This document shows, piece after piece, positions 14,011-21,728 of a DNA stretch of 22,222 nucleotides. Made by a program: the position numbers and the translations under genes. The notes beneath the pieces were generated by a model. It did not search any database, was not told where the DNA came from, and saw only the letters and a list, made by a program, of their open reading frames with translations. How positions within the stretch are numbered: position 1 is the first letter of the stretch; each line of letters opens with the position of its first letter. Source of the stretch: a virus; the IMG/VR virus record IMGVR_UViG_3300049893_001187, positions 1 through 22,222 of that record; one strand, written 5' to 3'.

Positions 14011-14646
14011 TTATGTGTTCGGATATTGCGCAATAAGTGCGCGAAGTTCCGCGCTGCGCTGGTTCAAAATTTCTTGTTGCTTTTGGCTTGTTTCCGATTC
14101 AATGCGGCGCATAAGGCTACGTTTTGCAACCTCCGTGCCTGGGTTAGCCGGAAAAGTTACGGGGCTAACATCGTACACGCGATTCACGGCCGTAATGGTG
14201 CGGTGATCTTTGCCGTTTTCACGCGCCCAAACGTCGCCTTGCGTGTTGTCATCATAGCGCAAGGTAAACCCCCATGAGCTTTGGGAAATGTCACCGCGCT
14301 CGATGCTCACGGCAAGGTCGCGGGCTGCCTGCGTATCGGGCAGGTCTATTTCATAGGCAAGGCCTGTGCTATCTGGCGCAAGGCGAAGGGTGCCGGATGT
14401 TGTACGACCAAGCACTACGTTAGGGTCATGATTCAGCAGCGCCCGAACGTCGGTAAGGTCGGCGTTATCAAGGGCCGCGCGGCTTATTTCCTCTGTAAAC
14501 CAGCCCATATCGTAGCGCTGGTTCCATTTGAGCGCATAGCCGCGCAACATCTTTTTACCGTCGTCTTTTGCCCGCACTTCAACAACCTGCCCGAAGGCGC
14601 GTGTTTCAACGTCAGGCAGTGCGCCGCGTGTTTCAATCGTTTGCAT
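14011..14646 (-). CDS. Prohead maturation protease (peptidase U35 / HK97 gp4 family)
   Basis: With start ATG 14646 the product has 211 aa; in-frame ATGs at 14694 and 14751 would add 16 or 35 residues. The extra stretch is strongly basic and lies opposite the acidic, repetitive tail of the portal gene in another frame, so it is probably not coding. Landmarks: 'RGYALKWN', 'SRAALDNADLTDVRALLNHDPNVVLGRT' with the catalytic His at 73, 'SIERGDISQSSWGF' with the catalytic Ser at about 124, and 'VNRVYDVSPVTFPANPGTEVAKRS'. The enzyme cleaves the capsid scaffold domain during head maturation. The sequence starts with two 'ETR' motifs, which may be self-cleavage sites (inference). Confidence 0.88.
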   Translation of the reverse strand: MQTIETRGALPDVETRAFGQVVEVRAKDDGKKMLRGYALKWNQRYDMGWFTEEISRAALDNADLTDVRALLNHDPNVVLGRTTSGTLRLAPDSTGLAYEIDLPDTQAARDLAVSIERGDISQSSWGFTLRYDDNTQGDVWARENGKDHRTITAVNRVYDVSPVTFPANPGTEVAKRSLMRRIESETSQKQQEILNQRSAELRALIAQYPNT

Positions 14647-16009
14647 CTTCTGTATCGTTTGTTCCGGTTGTTGCGTCCGGTGTTGTTGTTTCATCTTCCG
14701 ACACGTCGCCGCTTTGCGCTTCCGTGCCAGCCTGCGTTTGCGTGCTTTCATATTTTGCCTCTAATATGTCTTCCAGCAAATCCATAGGAGCCATGTTCTG
14801 CTGAATAAAGAGTTTGTCGCCGCCTTCTATCCGGTTTAGGTGTTTTTTGGCCCGTACTTCATTCGGGGTCATCCATCCGTTTTGAATAGCGGATGCGAAA
14901 AACGCCGCCTGCGCCTGCATATCGCCCATCGTCAGGGCTGACAGGTCGAACGAAAAGAACCGGGAGCGCCGGCGTATCTCTGTTGTGCTGAAAAGTTTTG
15001 TGTTGAACTCTTCCTCGATCTTTCGCGCCCAGGGGCCAAGGCAATGCACTACAAAGTCCTGGTTTTGCTGCTCCATGTTGGAGAATGTGGAGCGGTCCAA
15101 TTGGCTGAGCAGATGCAGCGGTACTTTGAATATCTGGCTTACCTGCACCGTAGAAAGGTTGGCGAAGTCAATGGCGGCGGAATCCTTTGGCGTTGCCTGC
15201 ATGGCTTTGAAGTCCGCGCCGGCGTCTAACACCATAATACTACCCGCGTTGCGGCTGCCGCTGTGTACGGATTCAAGTTTTCCCTTTAGTGTTTCGCGCT
15301 GTTCGCGGGATAGCGGGGCCGGGAAAGTGATAAGTCCACCAACGGCCGCGCCTTTGTCGAACCAGGTGTGAGCGTACTCCTGCGCACCCTGCGCGGTGCC
15401 GAATACCGACTTATGGGTTAACCTGATCTGCCGGCCCGTTATGCCGTTAATTGAAACGCCTTTAATGTGGATCATTTCCGTCTCAGGCAGTAAGACGTTT
15501 ATAGGCACGTCGTTAATTGATCCGCTCACCTGGTAGAACATTTGCCCGCTTTGGCTGTACCGAACGCTGACCATGTGCGACGGTATCAACTCAAGGGCAT
15601 ACGGCCGCGCCGTTTGGCTGTCGAAGTGGATACGGGCAAAGCCATTGCCTAAACAGGCGTTTGAAATCAAAGCCTGCAAAAAGTCGAATGCAGTATAGTT
15701 AGGGTGAGGTCTGCCCTCTAAAAGGTATGCTACCGGGTGCGCGTGGTCGGGGAAAATGTCTCCATCAGTTTGGCGGCGAAATACACCGCGCTCAAGCGAC
15801 GCTATACCCTCTGAAATGTAGCGGATTGCTGACCATGCCGGCGGAATACCAAGTATGGATTCGTTCGATACGTCCATACTGGATAGGCCGGTATCGTATC
15901 CGAAAAGGGCAGATAGCGCGGGGTCGCGCAGCGAAACGGAACGTTGTTCAACGTCCTTCGCCGCCTTCCTGGCATAAAATAGCCCAATTTCGTACCCGAA
16001 TAACTCCAT
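14633..16009 (-). CDS. Portal protein (HK97 family)
   Basis: The ATG at 16009 gives 458 aa. An in-frame TTG at 16039 would add ten residues; neither has a clear ribosome-binding site, and ATG is preferred. Family landmarks: 'GIPPAWSAIRYISEGIASL', 'HPVAYLLEGRPHPNYTAFDFLQALISNACLGNGFARI', 'LIPSHMVSVRY', 'EMIHIKG', 'IMVLDAGADFKAMQATPKDSAAID' and 'IFKVPLHLLSQLDRSTFSNMEQQNQDFV', followed by 'GGDKLFIQQNMAPMDLL' near the end. The last ~40 residues are acidic and Thr-rich, likely a disordered tail. Twelve copies form the packaging channel. It is unusual in lying seven genes away from the large terminase instead of directly after it. Confidence 0.93.
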   Translation of the reverse strand: MELFGYEIGLFYARKAAKDVEQRSVSLRDPALSALFGYDTGLSSMDVSNESILGIPPAWSAIRYISEGIASLERGVFRRQTDGDIFPDHAHPVAYLLEGRPHPNYTAFDFLQALISNACLGNGFARIHFDSQTARPYALELIPSHMVSVRYSQSGQMFYQVSGSINDVPINVLLPETEMIHIKGVSINGITGRQIRLTHKSVFGTAQGAQEYAHTWFDKGAAVGGLITFPAPLSREQRETLKGKLESVHSGSRNAGSIMVLDAGADFKAMQATPKDSAAIDFANLSTVQVSQIFKVPLHLLSQLDRSTFSNMEQQNQDFVVHCLGPWARKIEEEFNTKLFSTTEIRRRSRFFSFDLSALTMGDMQAQAAFFASAIQNGWMTPNEVRAKKHLNRIEGGDKLFIQQNMAPMDLLEDILEAKYESTQTQAGTEAQSGDVSEDETTTPDATTGTNDTEDAND

Positions 16010-16039
16010 CGGTACAAAATTGGGCCAATAGCGGGCCAA

Positions 16040-16081
16040 TACGGATTTTTAGCGGGAAAACCGTATCGGTTTAAACCGAAT
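16040..16081. repeat. Palindrome and short repeats between the cargo block and the portal gene
   Basis: This short gap holds a perfect 14-base palindrome, TCGGTTTAAACCGA, at 16066-16079. A further AAACCG at 16058-16063 can pair with the left half, so two alternative hairpins exist. Next to it, TAGCGGG occurs at 16029-16035 and 16050-16056, and GGGCCAATA at 16022-16030 and 16033-16041, partly inside the portal start region. There is no T-run directly after the palindrome in the direction of transcription, so a standard intrinsic terminator is not supported. It may be an operator, a processing site or a recombination scar left by cargo insertion. Confidence 0.45.
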
Positions 16082-16699
16082 TTATTTGAACGCCGGATGC
16101 TTTGAAAGGTCCGGGTATTTCATTATTAAATCTGGATTTTCTTTTGGCAGTCCGTCGATCATTTGCAGCGCCAACGTTGCCAGCATGGCAGGCATATAAA
16201 AATTATACCCTTCTGGGAGGGTAAACGTATCGTCGTGGTACGACATCTCGCCGCGCCCGCTGAACCGCGCCCGCCTGAGCCATTCGGCGGCATCCTGGTT
16301 ATCGGTCAGGATTGCCCCGCCCTTCTGGCATCGCAGGTGCTTGAAAGGCCCGGTAAAGGATAGCACCTGAAAAGCGCCAGGCCGGAACATTCCGTATGTC
16401 AAACGCAGGGCGCTATCAATCACCGGTGTACCAAGTATTTGATATTCTCCGACTAGATACTCGTCACTGTTGCGAAAAAATACCTTAAGGCCTGCCGCCT
16501 TAATCGCATACGGAACGCCTACATATGTATGATTTGGTATATACACATGATCGCCAGCGTGTATATAGTCCGCATTAATCAGGTACCGAAGCGCCAAAAA
16601 AATGCCGTTGCAATTGTTGTCAACAACGACGCAAAACGGCGCTCCGGTGTAGGCGCATAGGCGCGCCTCAAGTTCGCGGCAATTGTCGTAAATACTCAT
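16082..16699 (-). CDS. Short DegT/DnrJ/EryC1/StrS-type sugar aminotransferase
   Basis: ATG 16699 overlaps the upstream stop as ATGA and follows GGATTGGAGA, a good ribosome-binding site; the earlier ATG at 16729 is less likely. The product has 205 aa against a usual 360-400. The order of family motifs is kept: 'PFCVVVDNNCNGIFLALRYL' (cofactor phosphate region), 'IPNHTYVGVPYAIKAAGLKVFF', 'PVIDSALRL', then 'LSFTGPFKHLRCQKGGAILTD' with the expected PLP lysine at 120, and 'GYNFYMPAMLATLALQMID', after which the protein ends. The C-terminal small domain is missing and there is no room for it before the portal gene. Two positions are atypical: the acidic pair before the lysine reads 'DS', and the usual Arg after 'GYN' is Tyr. 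Likely role: transamination of a nucleotide-linked keto-sugar; activity is uncertain. Confidence 0.8.
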   Translation of the reverse strand: MSIYDNCRELEARLCAYTGAPFCVVVDNNCNGIFLALRYLINADYIHAGDHVYIPNHTYVGVPYAIKAAGLKVFFRNSDEYLVGEYQILGTPVIDSALRLTYGMFRPGAFQVLSFTGPFKHLRCQKGGAILTDNQDAAEWLRRARFSGRGEMSYHDDTFTLPEGYNFYMPAMLATLALQMIDGLPKENPDLIMKYPDLSKHPAFK

Positions 16700-17253
16700 T
16701 CTCCAATCCTTTCCAATTGTTGCCTGCAAATATAAGTACCCGGATCTGTTATGTCCTTGACAATAACCGCCCCGGCTCCGATTATCACGTCATCGCAAAT
16801 AGTAACACCTTCACGGATAACCGTTCCTGTTCCGATGTTGCATAACTTTCCGATTGTCACATTGCCAGATACATGGACGCCGGGCGAAAGTGTCACAAAG
16901 TCGCCAATCTGCGCCCCATGCCCGATAGTGCAGTTAAGGTTAACGATACAATGCCGGCCAATCCGGACGCCGGTAGTTATTATCGTACCTGGGCAAATTA
17001 TCGTACCCTCCGCTGCGCTGTATCCTGATCGGCCGGTAAAGTCAATGCACACATAGCGCATTTTGTACTTAGCCGCAATTTCCGCCCGCGTGTGTTGGTC
17101 GCCTATGGCGATAACGGTATGACAATTTGCATTTGCCTCCGCCATTTTCGCAAACTCGAAAAAGCGGGGCAGGTAATGCAAAACAGAGTTTGAAAGGTGG
17201 CATACGACCTCCTTTGCAAAACCTCCTTTTCCGAAAACCTGTAGAGTATTCAT
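16696..17253 (-). CDS. NeuD/PglD-like sugar O- or N-acyltransferase
   Basis: The protein has 185 aa; its ATG overlaps the stop of the PLOD-type gene (ATGA). Residues 1-70 look like the small Rossmann-like lid of this family ('LQVFGKGGFAKEVVCHL', 'HTVIAIGDQHTRAEIAAKY'). Residues 80-165 are hexapeptide repeats of a left-handed beta-helix: 'GTIICPGTIITTGVRIGRHCIVNLNCTIGHGAQIGDFVTLSPGVHVSGNVTIG'. His112 in 'IGHG' matches the general base of PglD and NeuD. The protein stops early after 'GAGAVIVKDITDPGTYICRQQ', without the usual 'G.PAK' end. It is expected to act as a trimer with acetyl-CoA on an amino sugar. The next gene, a DegT aminotransferase, is the enzyme that normally supplies such a substrate. 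Confidence 0.85.
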   Translation of the reverse strand: MNTLQVFGKGGFAKEVVCHLSNSVLHYLPRFFEFAKMAEANANCHTVIAIGDQHTRAEIAAKYKMRYVCIDFTGRSGYSAAEGTIICPGTIITTGVRIGRHCIVNLNCTIGHGAQIGDFVTLSPGVHVSGNVTIGKLCNIGTGTVIREGVTICDDVIIGAGAVIVKDITDPGTYICRQQLERIGE

Positions 17254-17915
17254 TTTTTAACGTTATAAACCCATCCCATAGGCGTCCGGCCGTTGCCGTG
17301 AAAAACAGCCGGCATCGTGTTGGTTATTGTATTCCTGATACCGACATTCAACACCTCGAAATCCGTTGGCTCCATAAATCCGATCGTTTGAAAGGTGTTA
17401 CATTCGTAATCCAGGCAAATTGGAAAACCCTGCTCTTTTGCCTTGAAAAACGCCCGCGCCTGCGCGCCCTGCGCCTGCCCGTCCGGAATATCGCCTAACG
17501 TGGTCAATCCGCCGATCTCGAAAAACTCTGCCAGCAGTCCAGCCGGCCCGGCATACCCGCCGCCGTTCAAATACCGCCAGGGCGTCAAGTCTGGATACTT
17601 CGCCCATGCTTCGCGCAATTCCTCTGTGGGCGGCCAAACGTTCTTTTCTGTGCTGTACAGAATATAGTTTGATGGTATGTGTGGCTCATAAAAAATAAAA
17701 CTGTCCGCCCCGTCGGCGTATAAAATCGGAGTGTCGGACGGCAGGCTACCGTAGAACTCGCCTAACAATCGCAACACTTCGCCGTTGCCGACGTGCTCTG
17801 TTTTAGGGGCTACGTTATGCAATTCAAGGCCTAGCGCATCGACGCTACGGCGAAACTCAAACGTACTGCTGTCAGGGTTTGCAAAGTCTTTGTAAATGTA
17901 TGTTGTGACAATCAT
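17250..17915 (-). CDS. PLOD-type glycosyltransferase (procollagen glycosyltransferase-like)
   Basis: The protein has 221 aa, one GT-A domain. The pattern follows the glycosyltransferase domain of procollagen lysyl hydroxylases: 'ILYADGADSFI' with a metal-binding DxxD at 68-71, 'YSTEKNVWPP' for the family's 'fsAE..CWP', 'RYLNGGGYAGPAGLLAEFF' for 'yLNSGg.iG', 'GFPICLDYECNTFQTI' for 'i.LDy...iFq', and a closing 'PAVFHGNG'. All key landmarks are present, so an active enzyme is plausible; the usual 'DDQ' is replaced by 'GAQ'. Donor and acceptor are unknown. It overlaps both neighbours by four bases, which points to translation coupled with the acyltransferase gene. Confidence 0.8.
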   Translation of the reverse strand: MIVTTYIYKDFANPDSSTFEFRRSVDALGLELHNVAPKTEHVGNGEVLRLLGEFYGSLPSDTPILYADGADSFIFYEPHIPSNYILYSTEKNVWPPTEELREAWAKYPDLTPWRYLNGGGYAGPAGLLAEFFEIGGLTTLGDIPDGQAQGAQARAFFKAKEQGFPICLDYECNTFQTIGFMEPTDFEVLNVGIRNTITNTMPAVFHGNGRTPMGWVYNVKK

Positions 17916-18133
17916 ATTTTAATCTCTTCCATTATGTGAAGTACGACCCGTTTGATACGGTGACCCGACCTGTACAGCGAATGAGCATCCATGAACGAGG
18001 CATAAGTCAGGTATCGCCGCATTTCGTACAACCGAAAAAAATCCCGTTCCGTTGCATGCCATGCCTCGAATCCGGTTAGGCCGTCCGAAAGGTGCCGGCC
18101 ATATCTTTCAAAGTACTCATTCGGTTTTAACAT
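17912..18133 (-). CDS. Small basic protein of unknown function
   Basis: The protein has 73 aa, predicted mostly helical, with many Arg, His and aromatic residues ('YFERYGRHLSDGLTGFEAWHATERDFFRLYEMRRYLTYASFMDAHSLYRSGHRIKRVVLHIM'). The ATG directly follows the stop of the methyltransferase, and its own stop overlaps the next ATG by four bases. There is no signal peptide or transmembrane helix, and no family was recognised. The base composition is like the sugar genes and not like the AT-rich methyltransferase, which supports grouping it with the PLOD-type gene. Good gene spacing is the main reason to accept it. Confidence 0.6.
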   Translation of the reverse strand: MLKPNEYFERYGRHLSDGLTGFEAWHATERDFFRLYEMRRYLTYASFMDAHSLYRSGHRIKRVVLHIMEEIKI

Positions 18134-18829
18134 TCATAAAATACTTAATTGTGTTGGTTCTAAATTATCAAAAAGCGGCATCGCAATTGATTCTTTAAAA
18201 CGCTTTTCTGCATCTTTAAAATAATCTTCGTCAATTTCAAACCCCCAAAAATCAAACCCTAATTTATATGCTACTATGCGAGAACTTCCGCTCCCAAGGT
18301 GCGTATCAAGTATTTTATCCCCTTGTTTTGCGTAGTTATTTAGTAGCCATTCGTAAAGTTGTATTGGTTTTTGGGTGGGATGAATTCTAATTTGTTTCTG
18401 TTTCATGTTTCCTTGAAGCATTCCGTGCCACCTAAAAACATATTTTCTAACAGCTGACCTAAAAGAAGTCCAGGCCAATTCACAATCCGCAAAATCAGAC
18501 GTTGAATTATCTTTATCCCAAACTATCCAACAAGAACTATTTACCGGAATTTTGGAAATGAAATGATTGGCTCCCCAAATTATTTGATTTTTTGAAACCC
18601 TGAAAAGTTCATAAAAATATTTCCTGTCGGGCGGTTTTTTGTCCCATTCTTTTGGCTTAAACATTGTCGGAGGAATGCCTTTCGTACCTCGACTATGATT
18701 AGATTTTCCATCTTCTCCAATCCCGTACGGCGGATCAACGATTGCCAAATCAAAAAACTTATCAGGATAGGATTTTAGGCCCTCCATGCAATCCATTAAT
18801 TTAACGTCTGATATTGGTCTATTTATCAT
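18134..18829 (-). CDS. Solitary DNA methyltransferase (N6-adenine or N4-cytosine, beta class)
   Basis: The protein has 231 aa. The catalytic motif IV DPPY is at 32-35, then 'IHPTQKP' near 149-155, and motif I in the form 'LDTHLGSGSS' at 174-183 followed by 'GFEIDEDYFKDAEKRF'. The order IV-then-I marks the beta class of DNA amino-methyltransferases (N6_N4_Mtase). DPPY suggests adenine, but cytosine-N4 cannot be excluded. The recognition region (about 50-145) has no readable specificity. No restriction endonuclease lies nearby, so self-protection against host restriction is the likely role. The gene is visibly more AT-rich than its neighbours, with many AAA, AAT and TTT codons, which suggests separate acquisition. 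It overlaps the upstream gene by 11 bases. Confidence 0.9.
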   Translation of the reverse strand: MINRPISDVKLMDCMEGLKSYPDKFFDLAIVDPPYGIGEDGKSNHSRGTKGIPPTMFKPKEWDKKPPDRKYFYELFRVSKNQIIWGANHFISKIPVNSSCWIVWDKDNSTSDFADCELAWTSFRSAVRKYVFRWHGMLQGNMKQKQIRIHPTQKPIQLYEWLLNNYAKQGDKILDTHLGSGSSRIVAYKLGFDFWGFEIDEDYFKDAEKRFKESIAMPLFDNLEPTQLSIL

Positions 18830-19805
18830 TCGTAACAGGCAGCAAATGCGGTACCAAACTGAAAATACTTTGCGCCCGCGCCTGGGCGGTTTTATACAGG
18901 TTGTAATTTTCTACGATGTTGTTCTTTGCCGCCTCCCAAAACATGCACGCCTCCGAATAGGGGACCGGCTCCGATACCGCATATTCCCATCCTGGCTTTC
19001 CGGCGTAATTAGTCAGGCAAACACCGCCAGACATGGTAGCCTCCAAAACGGCAATGTTGCTTTTATGGTCGTTGAAGCCATTTTTCACCATTGGCTTCCA
19101 TAGGTAGTTTATGCCCATCTGCCGCATAAAGCCGAAATACTTTTCCGGGTCATCAAGATATGGGGCATCCCGCCATTTTTCATTCCCTTCAATGGGTGGC
19201 CGATACCCGATAAAAACGCCCGTCTTTGCCATGTCGCGGTACATAGGCCAATTCTTTAACCCTTGCCCAAGTATGTCATGCATTTGGATTTTTGCCCCCC
19301 TCCATGCAAATATTCCGTTATCCTTTGCCGGCTCATTGGGTAGCCATTCCGGTGGTATGGCATTCGGCATAACCTGGGCGTCTGCCCGGTAGGTATCCAG
19401 GAACGCAGGCGTCGAAATCCATACGGCGTCTGCTAGTTCGATACACTCACGGGTTGATTTAACCCGTGCCTTTTCGTTGTAGATATTGTATAGATCATGA
19501 TCCGGCGGCATCCCGAGTATGTTGTCGTCAATATCAACGATCACGCGCCGTCCGCCTGGAACTATATTTTGCGCCATTTTCATCAACTGATTGCGGGCCT
19601 CCTGTTCGCCCGGCTTGCCGCTGCCTGGCCGGGCCTGAATTATTACGTCCGCGTTCCAGGCGTCGAAATAATTCAACTCCTTGCTACGAAAACGAAAATC
19701 AAAAACGCCAGGATACATTATTTTCATCACCGAAAACGGGGCATATAGCCTCCACCATCCGGTGTTAGAAACGTACTCCGGTTCTAAAACTAAGATGTTT
19801 ATCAT
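18819..19805 (-). CDS. GT4-like (GT-B) glycosyltransferase
   Basis: ATG 19805 overlaps the stop of the small upstream gene as ATGA and gives 328 aa; an in-frame ATG at 19829 would add eight residues. The sequence opens 'INILVLEPEYVSNTGWWRLYAP', a typical GT-B N-terminal strand. It continues with 'VIVDIDDNI' (88-96), 'LADAVWISTPAFLDTYR...VMPNAIPPEW' (125-154) marking the link between the two domains, and 'WKPMV...FNDHKSNIAVLEATMSGGVCLT' (236-265) in the nucleotide-sugar site, where the Glu of 'VLEA' fits the family's conserved acid. No membrane segment is seen. Donor and acceptor are unknown. Its distance from the sugar-modifying genes (two genes) still keeps it in the same cargo block. Confidence 0.8.
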   Translation of the reverse strand: MINILVLEPEYVSNTGWWRLYAPFSVMKIMYPGVFDFRFRSKELNYFDAWNADVIIQARPGSGKPGEQEARNQLMKMAQNIVPGGRRVIVDIDDNILGMPPDHDLYNIYNEKARVKSTRECIELADAVWISTPAFLDTYRADAQVMPNAIPPEWLPNEPAKDNGIFAWRGAKIQMHDILGQGLKNWPMYRDMAKTGVFIGYRPPIEGNEKWRDAPYLDDPEKYFGFMRQMGINYLWKPMVKNGFNDHKSNIAVLEATMSGGVCLTNYAGKPGWEYAVSEPVPYSEACMFWEAAKNNIVENYNLYKTAQARAQSIFSLVPHLLPVTNDK

Positions 19806-20024: not shown

Positions 20025-21728
20025 TTAAATAATTATCATGTCTTCCTCCAACAAATACGACGTCGCCTGCACTTCGCCGCGCTCTTTGAGCCATTGCCCG
20101 ATTGCGTTCAAACTTGCGCTTATGCCGTCGATCTTATCGGCGCTCTTGCCCTTGCTGGGCAAATAGTTATCGTTTCGGTCGCTGCGCTGCATCGAAACGT
20201 TTGCCATGTTCCACCTCAAAATCGGATGCCCGGCATGGGTGAATAGCCGCTTTATAACCATGTGCTCGATATGCTTAGCGGCCGGCGTCACCCATTGCCA
20301 GCTCTGCACAAAAACCTCCATCCGAAACCCATCCTGGATAAGGGCAGGGGTCAGGTAGGACGAAAGTTGACGGTCGAACCCGATTGCCTGCACCATGTAC
20401 GGCTCGCAAATCTCGATAATGTCCTGCCTTAGTATCTCGTAATCCGTGCCCTCGCCGGGCGTCGTGCGCAAAATGCCCTCGTGTATCCATTTATCGATGA
20501 AAGGCCGCTTTACTTTGTGTTTCTCGACCGATGCCTCCGGAATCCAGTAAAACGGCAACAAAACTGCCTTTTCGTCGCCATTTGCCGGGAAAAACAGCAC
20601 AAAAGCGTTAAAATCGTTCGTGTTGGCTAAGTCCAATCCTCCCCAACATTCCCGACCTTTCAGGGCTTCAAAATCAATTTCATCGGCGCACAACATCCAA
20701 TCCTCGTCGGCTATCCATCCGGATTCGCCGGCGTGTTCCATATTCAGGTTTTTGACTTTGAAGTCAATCTCTTTCCTGATGCCCTGCGATTTGATCTTGT
20801 TGAACTCGGTTTGCAGGCCGGTCATGGTAAGGCTAATACCCAAACCTGGGTTTGCCTTTATCCAAAGATTTTCGTCTTTCCAATCGTCGCCTTCGTCAAG
20901 TTCGTATATAAAGGCCAACAGTTCTTCGTTTTCGGTAATGCCCTGCAATACGTTTTTGCAGGCCCGCAAAAATTCGCTATTCGGCCCCAAAGGGTTATGC
21001 CCGGCAGTGGTGATAATCCAGGTCATGGGGTCAAGATTGCTTTTCACAAGTCCGCTTTCGAGCACATTTAAGCGGTCGTCATTGTCCCAGGCGTGGTACT
21101 CATCGACCAATACATAGTACGGGCTTGCCCCGTCTTCCGTATCGCTTTCCCGACCTAAATACGATACCCACGAAAGCTGGTCGGTCCTGCTTATTTTTGT
21201 AGAATTATGCCCCTTCGGGATGTTGATAAGGCTTTGTAATTCCGGCTCATCTTCAACCAGCATTTTTAACATGACCCGCTGCCTGTCCCATCCTATTTTT
21301 GCCTGCTCTTTTACTGTGGCCACCCAATAAACCTCCGCTCCATTTACGCCCTCGAAAAGAAAACCAATGGTACCAATGGTTACCAGGTTGGCCGTTTTGG
21401 CGTTACCCCTTGCGACCTTAACGTACACCTTTCTAAACCGCTTGCCGCCGCCGTCACGCCTCCAACCGTAGGCCAGATATACAACAGCGGCCCACCAGGG
21501 CATAACGTCAAACGGCTTTCCCGTCTCCGCTCCCTTGGAAAAGCGAAAAAGGCTGTACAGGCTTAAAACCCGTTCGGCTTCTTCTTCATCGAAATAGAAA
21601 GGGAAATCATGGGATCCAACACGGCCCAGGTCTTTTATATGTCTCTCCAGTGCCAGGCGCAACCATTTGCCGGAAATGATTTTTCCGGAAAGTACATCTG
21701 ATATGTATGTTTGCGCCCGTTCAATCAT
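20025..21728 (-). CDS. terL: Terminase large subunit (HK97-type, Terminase_1)
   Basis: The protein has 567 aa. The ATPase part has a Walker A variant 'VARGNAKT' at 105-112 (family norm 'PR.NgKs'), Walker B 'YVLVDE' at 205-210 and a coupling motif 'TTAGHN' at 240-245. The nuclease part has 'GGLDLANTNDFNAF' with Asp366, 'GFDRQLSS' with Asp452, and 'DKIDGISA' with Asp531 and Asp534, fitting the acidic cluster of the RNase H-like fold. It pumps DNA into the prohead and cuts the concatemer. The start overlaps the small subunit stop by four bases. Family length is 480-580, so it is full length. Confidence 0.95.
   Translation of the reverse strand: MIERAQTYISDVLSGKIISGKWLRLALERHIKDLGRVGSHDFPFYFDEEEAERVLSLYSLFRFSKGAETGKPFDVMPWWAAVVYLAYGWRRDGGGKRFRKVYVKVARGNAKTANLVTIGTIGFLFEGVNGAEVYWVATVKEQAKIGWDRQRVMLKMLVEDEPELQSLINIPKGHNSTKISRTDQLSWVSYLGRESDTEDGASPYYVLVDEYHAWDNDDRLNVLESGLVKSNLDPMTWIITTAGHNPLGPNSEFLRACKNVLQGITENEELLAFIYELDEGDDWKDENLWIKANPGLGISLTMTGLQTEFNKIKSQGIRKEIDFKVKNLNMEHAGESGWIADEDWMLCADEIDFEALKGRECWGGLDLANTNDFNAFVLFFPANGDEKAVLLPFYWIPEASVEKHKVKRPFIDKWIHEGILRTTPGEGTDYEILRQDIIEICEPYMVQAIGFDRQLSSYLTPALIQDGFRMEVFVQSWQWVTPAAKHIEHMVIKRLFTHAGHPILRWNMANVSMQRSDRNDNYLPSKGKSADKIDGISASLNAIGQWLKERGEVQATSYLLEEDMIII

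Follow-up and report, generated by a model that had tools for sequence, protein, structure and literature searches.

The interval between the genes of the terminase large subunit (terL) and the portal protein in a 22,222-bp stretch of viral DNA (IMG/VR virus record IMGVR_UViG_3300049893_001187, positions 1 to 22,222; the whole stretch is referred to below as the window) carries a short member of the DegT family, named here mini-DegT. The strongest result of the analysis is that this protein belongs to a virus-enriched family, and we read it as a distinct and functional subfamily, with a reaction predicted from the sequences and a structural model. In the window, mini-DegT closes a three-gene cassette in which it is preceded by a PLOD-type glycosyltransferase (PLOD-GT) and a NeuD-like acyltransferase; a GT4-like glycosyltransferase lies in the same interval. 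The best explanation of the whole, to which we give an even chance, is that the interval is a slot for glycan-related cargo, in which mini-DegT and the NeuD-like enzyme would finish an amino sugar that the glycosyltransferases would transfer, most plausibly to a virion protein.

Mini-DegT and its family

The gene of mini-DegT starts with the ATG at position 16699, within an ATGA junction, which yields a protein of 205 residues, against 360–400 in the usual DegT enzymes. Its score for PF01041 (62.3 bits) lies above the gathering cutoff of 19.8; an earlier, sequence-only reading of the window, which had listed a DegT-type aminotransferase, was right about the family, but its label hid a subfamily of half the usual size. 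Alignment to the solved DegT enzymes reveals that the whole C-terminal domain is missing, as is an internal β–α segment of ~40 residues ahead of the aspartate strand, with a total shortfall of ~160 aa compared to a normal enzyme. Mini-DegT does not have the full-length, two-domain chain expected in the DegT family, and no model specific for the short form is present in Pfam, PHROG or NCBIfam.

The AlphaFold (AF2) model of mini-DegT has a predicted local distance difference test (pLDDT) value of 94.2 and a predicted template modelling (pTM) score of 0.91. Among the PDB folds listed by Foldseek, the best are those of sugar enzymes of the DegT family (ArnB, DesV, GDP-perosamine synthase, WlaRG, and QdtB), with TM-scores normalised to the query (TMq) of 0.61–0.71, and of 0.32–0.41 when normalised to the full-length targets. 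A viral protein of 316 aa with no known name (BFVD A0A5Q2W5Y7) also has a predicted fold close to that of mini-DegT (TMq 0.77, root-mean-square deviation 1.6, 28% identity).

In a profile alignment, Lys120 of mini-DegT corresponds to the catalytic Lys186 of GDP-perosamine synthase, the aligned entry being the K186A mutant, with Ala in that position. This lysine, assigned to pyridoxal phosphate (PLP), and Asp95, the ring-binding aspartate, are invariant in all 106 family members examined (one of them a duplicate slice of the window), as are Thr58-Tyr59 and further residues of the active-site region, about a dozen positions besides the Lys/Asp pair. The length is 195–234 aa in ~101 of the 106 proteins, and such uniformity shows that the reduced length does not result from a broken gene.

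When an alignment that included phage homologues was used for searching, viral contigs yielded more than 591 relatives of mini-DegT, and a set of 84,980 cellular species, each represented by one genome, yielded 20. Since the search patterns were built from phage members, the ratio of viral to cellular matches is biased, and whole genomes of three phyla were therefore searched with a profile; leaving aside the genomes that served as centres, a family member was present in 1 of ~1,080 sampled cellular genomes. Alignments were required in the viral contigs, in which single window sequences (DegT, PLOD-GT, and GT4) gave no matches. The portal protein of the window phage was not found in the three mini-DegT contigs tried, which are thus unrelated phages or fragments. 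Literature searches on phage DegT genes returned nothing usable.

The neighbours of mini-DegT were counted in 87 clusters at 95% identity and in 32 clusters at 80%. At 95%, a NeuD homologue is located within the locus in 61 clusters and directly adjoins mini-DegT in 40, WbqC adjoins it in 14, and one or the other is present in 71 (20 of the 32 at 80%). A homologue of NAD-dependent epimerases/dehydratases lies nearby in 24 of the 87, and the gene directly after the more distant cellular members is often of the epimerase type. A NeuD-like gene follows mini-DegT directly in Flavobacterium phage immuto, as well as in the huge phage LR756511 (595 kb). In four loci (L022, L024, L027, and L043) mini-DegT forms the C terminus of a protein of ~870–930 aa; in the one scanned, L027, it is preceded by a glycosyltransferase group 1 domain and an FkbM methyltransferase domain. 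These neighbours point to the chemistry of nucleoside diphosphate (NDP) sugars with N-acylation. The earlier proposal of an amino-sugar finishing step by DegT and NeuD is supported by the recurrence of the pair in many unrelated phages and by the conservation of active-site residues. Counts of full-length DegT genes made with a home-made hidden Markov model were discarded, because the model also matched mini-DegT itself. In loci L008, L012, L013, L031, and others, mini-DegT is immediately followed by a WbqC-like gene, so that WbqC and NeuD apparently alternate as partners; literature searches on the function of WbqC gave nothing usable.

The NeuD-like protein of the window is predicted to form a hexapeptide β-helix (PF00132, 1.4e-14, above the cutoff), and its best solved relative in the PDB is VioB (9e-25). 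Its match to TIGR03570 of NCBIfam (3e-39) reaches 134.7 bits and remains below the cutoff of 160.8, hence it is labelled NeuD-like and not filed as a member. The N-terminal, nucleotide-binding PglD_N domain (PF17836) is matched at 0.0076 in the window copy, below the cutoff, and at 4.5e-07 in the relative L035. The window copy retains the catalytic His, and so do 51 of 58 paired homologues.

The terL–portal interval

The packaging and head module of the window is of the HK97 type and is located on the minus strand, with terS, terL, portal, protease, capsid, connectors, tail tube, and tape measure. Seven tightly coupled genes fill the interval between terL and portal (Table 1). ATGA junctions link s70 to GT4, s73 to PLOD-GT, PLOD-GT to the NeuD-like gene, and the latter to DegT, and the methyltransferase gene overlaps the end of GT4 by 11 nt. 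Chance does not account for these findings: the assignments have profile E-values no worse than 1e-10, and homologous arrangements are seen repeatedly among other phages. The sequence-only reading had correctly placed four of these genes, as well as the coupling of the last three, and had missed the DNA methyltransferase and the two small open reading frames (ORFs), s70 and s73.

Table 1. Genes of the terL–portal interval and its two borders, in the order of transcription (window coordinates)
Feature	Coordinates	Strand	Matches and remarks
terL (terminase large subunit), upstream border	20025..21728	-	PF03354 TerL_ATPase + PF20441 TerL_nuclease; PHROG 9, 4.9e-129
s70, small ORF, 70 aa	19802..20014	-	Low GC (0.32); ATGA-coupled to GT4
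GT4-like (GT-B) glycosyltransferase	18819..19805	-	PHROG 7162, 1.8e-12
N6/N4 DNA methyltransferase	18134..18829	-	PF01555, 1.2e-16
s73, small conserved ORF, 73 aa	17912..18133	-	Homologues in the slot of relatives
PLOD-type glycosyltransferase, 221 aa	17250..17915	-	PF25342, 1.4e-10
NeuD/PglD/VioB-like left-handed β-helix acyltransferase	16696..17253	-	TIGR03570, PF00132, VioB match
mini-DegT, 205 aa	16082..16699	-	PF01041, 6e-17
Portal protein, downstream border	14633..16039	-	PF04860 (Phage_portal), 6e-85

PLOD-GT scores 41.3 bits for PF25342 (gathering cutoff 27), and its closest solved structures, 9dyt ('R699') and the glycosyltransferase domain of human LH3, match across much of that domain. 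The coding strand of the window contains no collagen-like Gly-X-Y run of at least 6 units. The GT4-like protein has a match to PHROG 7162 ('glycosyltransferase') and none in Pfam. Its model (pLDDT 64) is reliable in the N-terminal half only, and the top fold matches of this low-confidence model are GT-B enzymes (GlgM and sucrose phosphate synthase), with poor superposition. For s70, scans of Pfam and PHROG profiles gave no significant family match.

The methyltransferase gene has a GC content of 0.36, and of 0.29 at third codon positions, compared to ~0.5–0.6 in its surroundings, and is therefore a probable recent import; a homologue is found in the relative L117. In contrast, the GC composition of the PLOD–NeuD–DegT trio bears no sign of recent arrival. 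A perfect palindrome, CGGTTTAAACCG, is located at 16067–16078, between mini-DegT and portal; it is unique as an exact match, and with two mismatches allowed it occurs no more often than by chance. Promoter and terminator scans returned numerous weak sites, which were not used.

Relatives of the window phage were located through terL, portal, and GT4. In every contig with a GT4 homologue, this gene neighbours terL, portal, or both, within the limits of the contig, even where the identity of terL is only ~30%, and in the relatives found neither PLOD-GT, nor NeuD, nor DegT is present in the slot. GT4 is thus a core gene of the lineage, whereas the other three belong to a separate evolutionary layer. 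Joint gain and loss of the four genes, which the earlier reading had set as a test, is rejected, GT4 homologues occurring in all relatives found without the rest. What stands of that reading is the presence of these genes between terL and portal and the finishing step, rather than a single four-gene unit or system. In the closest relative, L117 (terL 68%, portal 71%), the order is terL–methyltransferase–GT4–s73–portal, which indicates that the trio of the window was inserted between s73 and portal; it looks like one insertion, seen once.

The remaining cargo varies from one relative to another. Several Methyltransf_24 proteins are found in L118/L126 and L120/L125, together with one protein resembling nucleotidyltransferases and one of HAD/kinase-like type. 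L119 carries a methyltransferase and an ATP-grasp protein, and in L122/L123 the cargo comprises a methyltransferase-like protein and a GDPD-like one (for the GDPD and nucleotidyltransferase assignments the sequences were read by eye, with no profile match). In the more distant phages L109 and L110 (terL 36%), portal follows terL directly. Homologues of s73 at 39–44% identity are found in L107 (9171–9461), L117 (3797–4033), and L120 (6041–6328), and their position relative to the cargo varies. A 165-aa ORF, HNH-like by its sequence, stands before GT4 in L131, L133, and L134. The cargo of L125 and L126 is 54–87% identical, though their terL proteins are 30% and 71% identical to that of the window, respectively, so that terL and the cargo/portal block seem to have been exchanged independently.

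A possible pathway and its alternatives

The terL–portal interval of this lineage may be regarded as a glycan-cargo slot in which a GT-B-like glycosyltransferase (GT4-like) is retained, and beside which other genes modifying sugars and small molecules would be swapped in and out, the variable cargo of the window phage being the ATGA-coupled cassette. In such a pathway mini-DegT would most likely aminate a nucleotide-linked (4-keto) sugar supplied by the host; as stated in the sequence-only reading, no dehydratase is seen in the slot of the window. The NeuD-like enzyme would then N-acylate the amine, and PLOD-GT and/or GT4 would attach the N-acyl amino sugar, probably to a virion protein, during late expression. 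A virion protein is the most plausible acceptor because the cassette genes are co-linear with those of packaging and capsid.

Several observations weigh against this interpretation. The C-terminal domain of full-length DegT enzymes contributes to the active-site region, and since it is absent here, an altered reaction is possible. The complete trio was seen in a single phage, that of the window, and in other phages, such as that of locus L014, the DegT–NeuD pair may be located away from structural genes. There is only a weak correlation between DegT and NeuD distances (Mantel r 0.26, p 0.002), which implies that partners were often exchanged. Finally, non-glycan genes such as the DNA methyltransferase share the slot, so that position in it does not prove virion glycosylation. 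The late-operon placement, put forward earlier, is weak evidence for action on virions, given that the slot of relatives also holds S-adenosylmethionine-dependent methyltransferases, as well as HNH-like, ATP-grasp, and GDPD-like proteins.

Two main alternatives have to be considered, of which the first concerns the acceptor. The cassette might alter the host surface (O-antigen or capsule) and not virions, for example by blocking superinfection or the re-adsorption of released phage to debris. The gene families are indeed the ones at work in the biosynthesis of O-antigens and capsules, NeuD and WbqC recur as neighbours, and the relative L118 has a match to EcbF/BcbF-like capsule phosphatases. 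We nevertheless consider this unlikely, as the slot showed neither a membrane acyltransferase nor a gene of the flippase type, and the fixed place of GT4 in the packaging/capsid module throughout the lineage is a better fit to timing linked to the virion.

The second concerns the reaction. With ~160 residues of the normal enzyme absent, mini-DegT might catalyse something else, such as 3-dehydration of a sugar or transfer onto a non-sugar carbonyl, or a partner protein might complete its active site; ColD-type dehydrases are among its sequence relatives, and a full-length DegT is found near it in some loci (L002, L032, and L059). This possibility is doubtful as well, since the recurrent N-acyltransferase neighbours (NeuD and WbqC) suit an amine-forming enzyme and the slot of the window has no full-length DegT.

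A generic late-operon cargo site, whose genes share no common pathway, would account for the presence of the DNA methyltransferase and HNH-like genes in the same slot; it is rather improbable, given that most annotated cargo of the lineage is related to sugar or methyl transfer, and that the DegT–NeuD linkage recurs outside it. That the DegT gene is a decayed, inactive fragment of a normal aminotransferase, as its half length and deviations from consensus at some conserved sites (e.g., Ala-Met for Pro-Glu at 181–182 of the 215-aa ORF) might suggest, is very improbable and largely refuted by the conserved length and catalytic residues of 106 homologues from diverse viruses, as well as by an intact, ATGA-coupled reading frame.

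Returning to amino-sugar finishing in the slot, we can speculate further that mini-DegT acts, with no C-terminal domain, as a minimal sugar aminotransferase (fold-type I, PLP-dependent) specialised to viruses, and that phages use it with swappable NeuD/WbqC partners and glycosyltransferases to produce rare N-acyl amino sugars for the decoration and diversification of their virions, a proposal that we hold only tentatively. A half-size, catalytically conserved subfamily, common in viruses and nearly absent from cells, would rank with the smallest sugar-aminotransferase-like PLP enzymes and would mark phage amino-sugar chemistry. The slot, with its conserved glycosyltransferase and swappable cargo, lends itself to comparisons between phages that address whether their virion glycans are diversified in the manner of bacterial O-antigens.

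Comparison with known systems

Mini-DegT shares with the DegT/DnrJ/EryC1/StrS enzymes (ArnB, GDP-perosamine synthase, and DesV) the fold of the large domain, the PLP lysine and ring aspartate, and the linkage to NDP-sugar enzymes, whereas it differs from them in its length of ~205 aa, in the loss of the C-terminal domain and the internal β–α segment, and in its enrichment in viruses. In turn, the acyltransferase resembles NeuD, PglD, and VioB in its hexapeptide β-helix, catalytic His, and N-terminal glycine motif, but scores below the TIGR03570 cutoff, has a shortened N-terminal domain, and is paired with mini-DegT. Unlike the PLOD-type glycosyltransferases with known structure (LH3 domain and 9dyt R699), the phage protein is a stand-alone one of 221 aa, and unlike in pathways of the bacillosamine/viosamine type, no 4,6-dehydratase accompanies the aminotransferase and acyltransferase in the slot.

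For mycobacteriophages, a modification of capsid proteins by phage glycosyltransferases has been proposed (Freeman et al. 2023, cited in PMC11256854); in the parts of PMC11256854 that bear on this, an amino-sugar biosynthesis pair such as that of the window is not described for them. A viral precedent is provided by Mimivirus, a eukaryotic giant virus with a PLP enzyme of 352 aa and a 4,6-dehydratase of its own, in which L136 (PLP transferase), L142 (acetyltransferase and glycosyltransferase), and R141 make N-acetyl-viosamine for the virion fibrils (PMC10117803). As in the window, a viral PLP aminotransferase is found there together with an N-acetyltransferase and a glycosyltransferase, in that case serving virion glycans.

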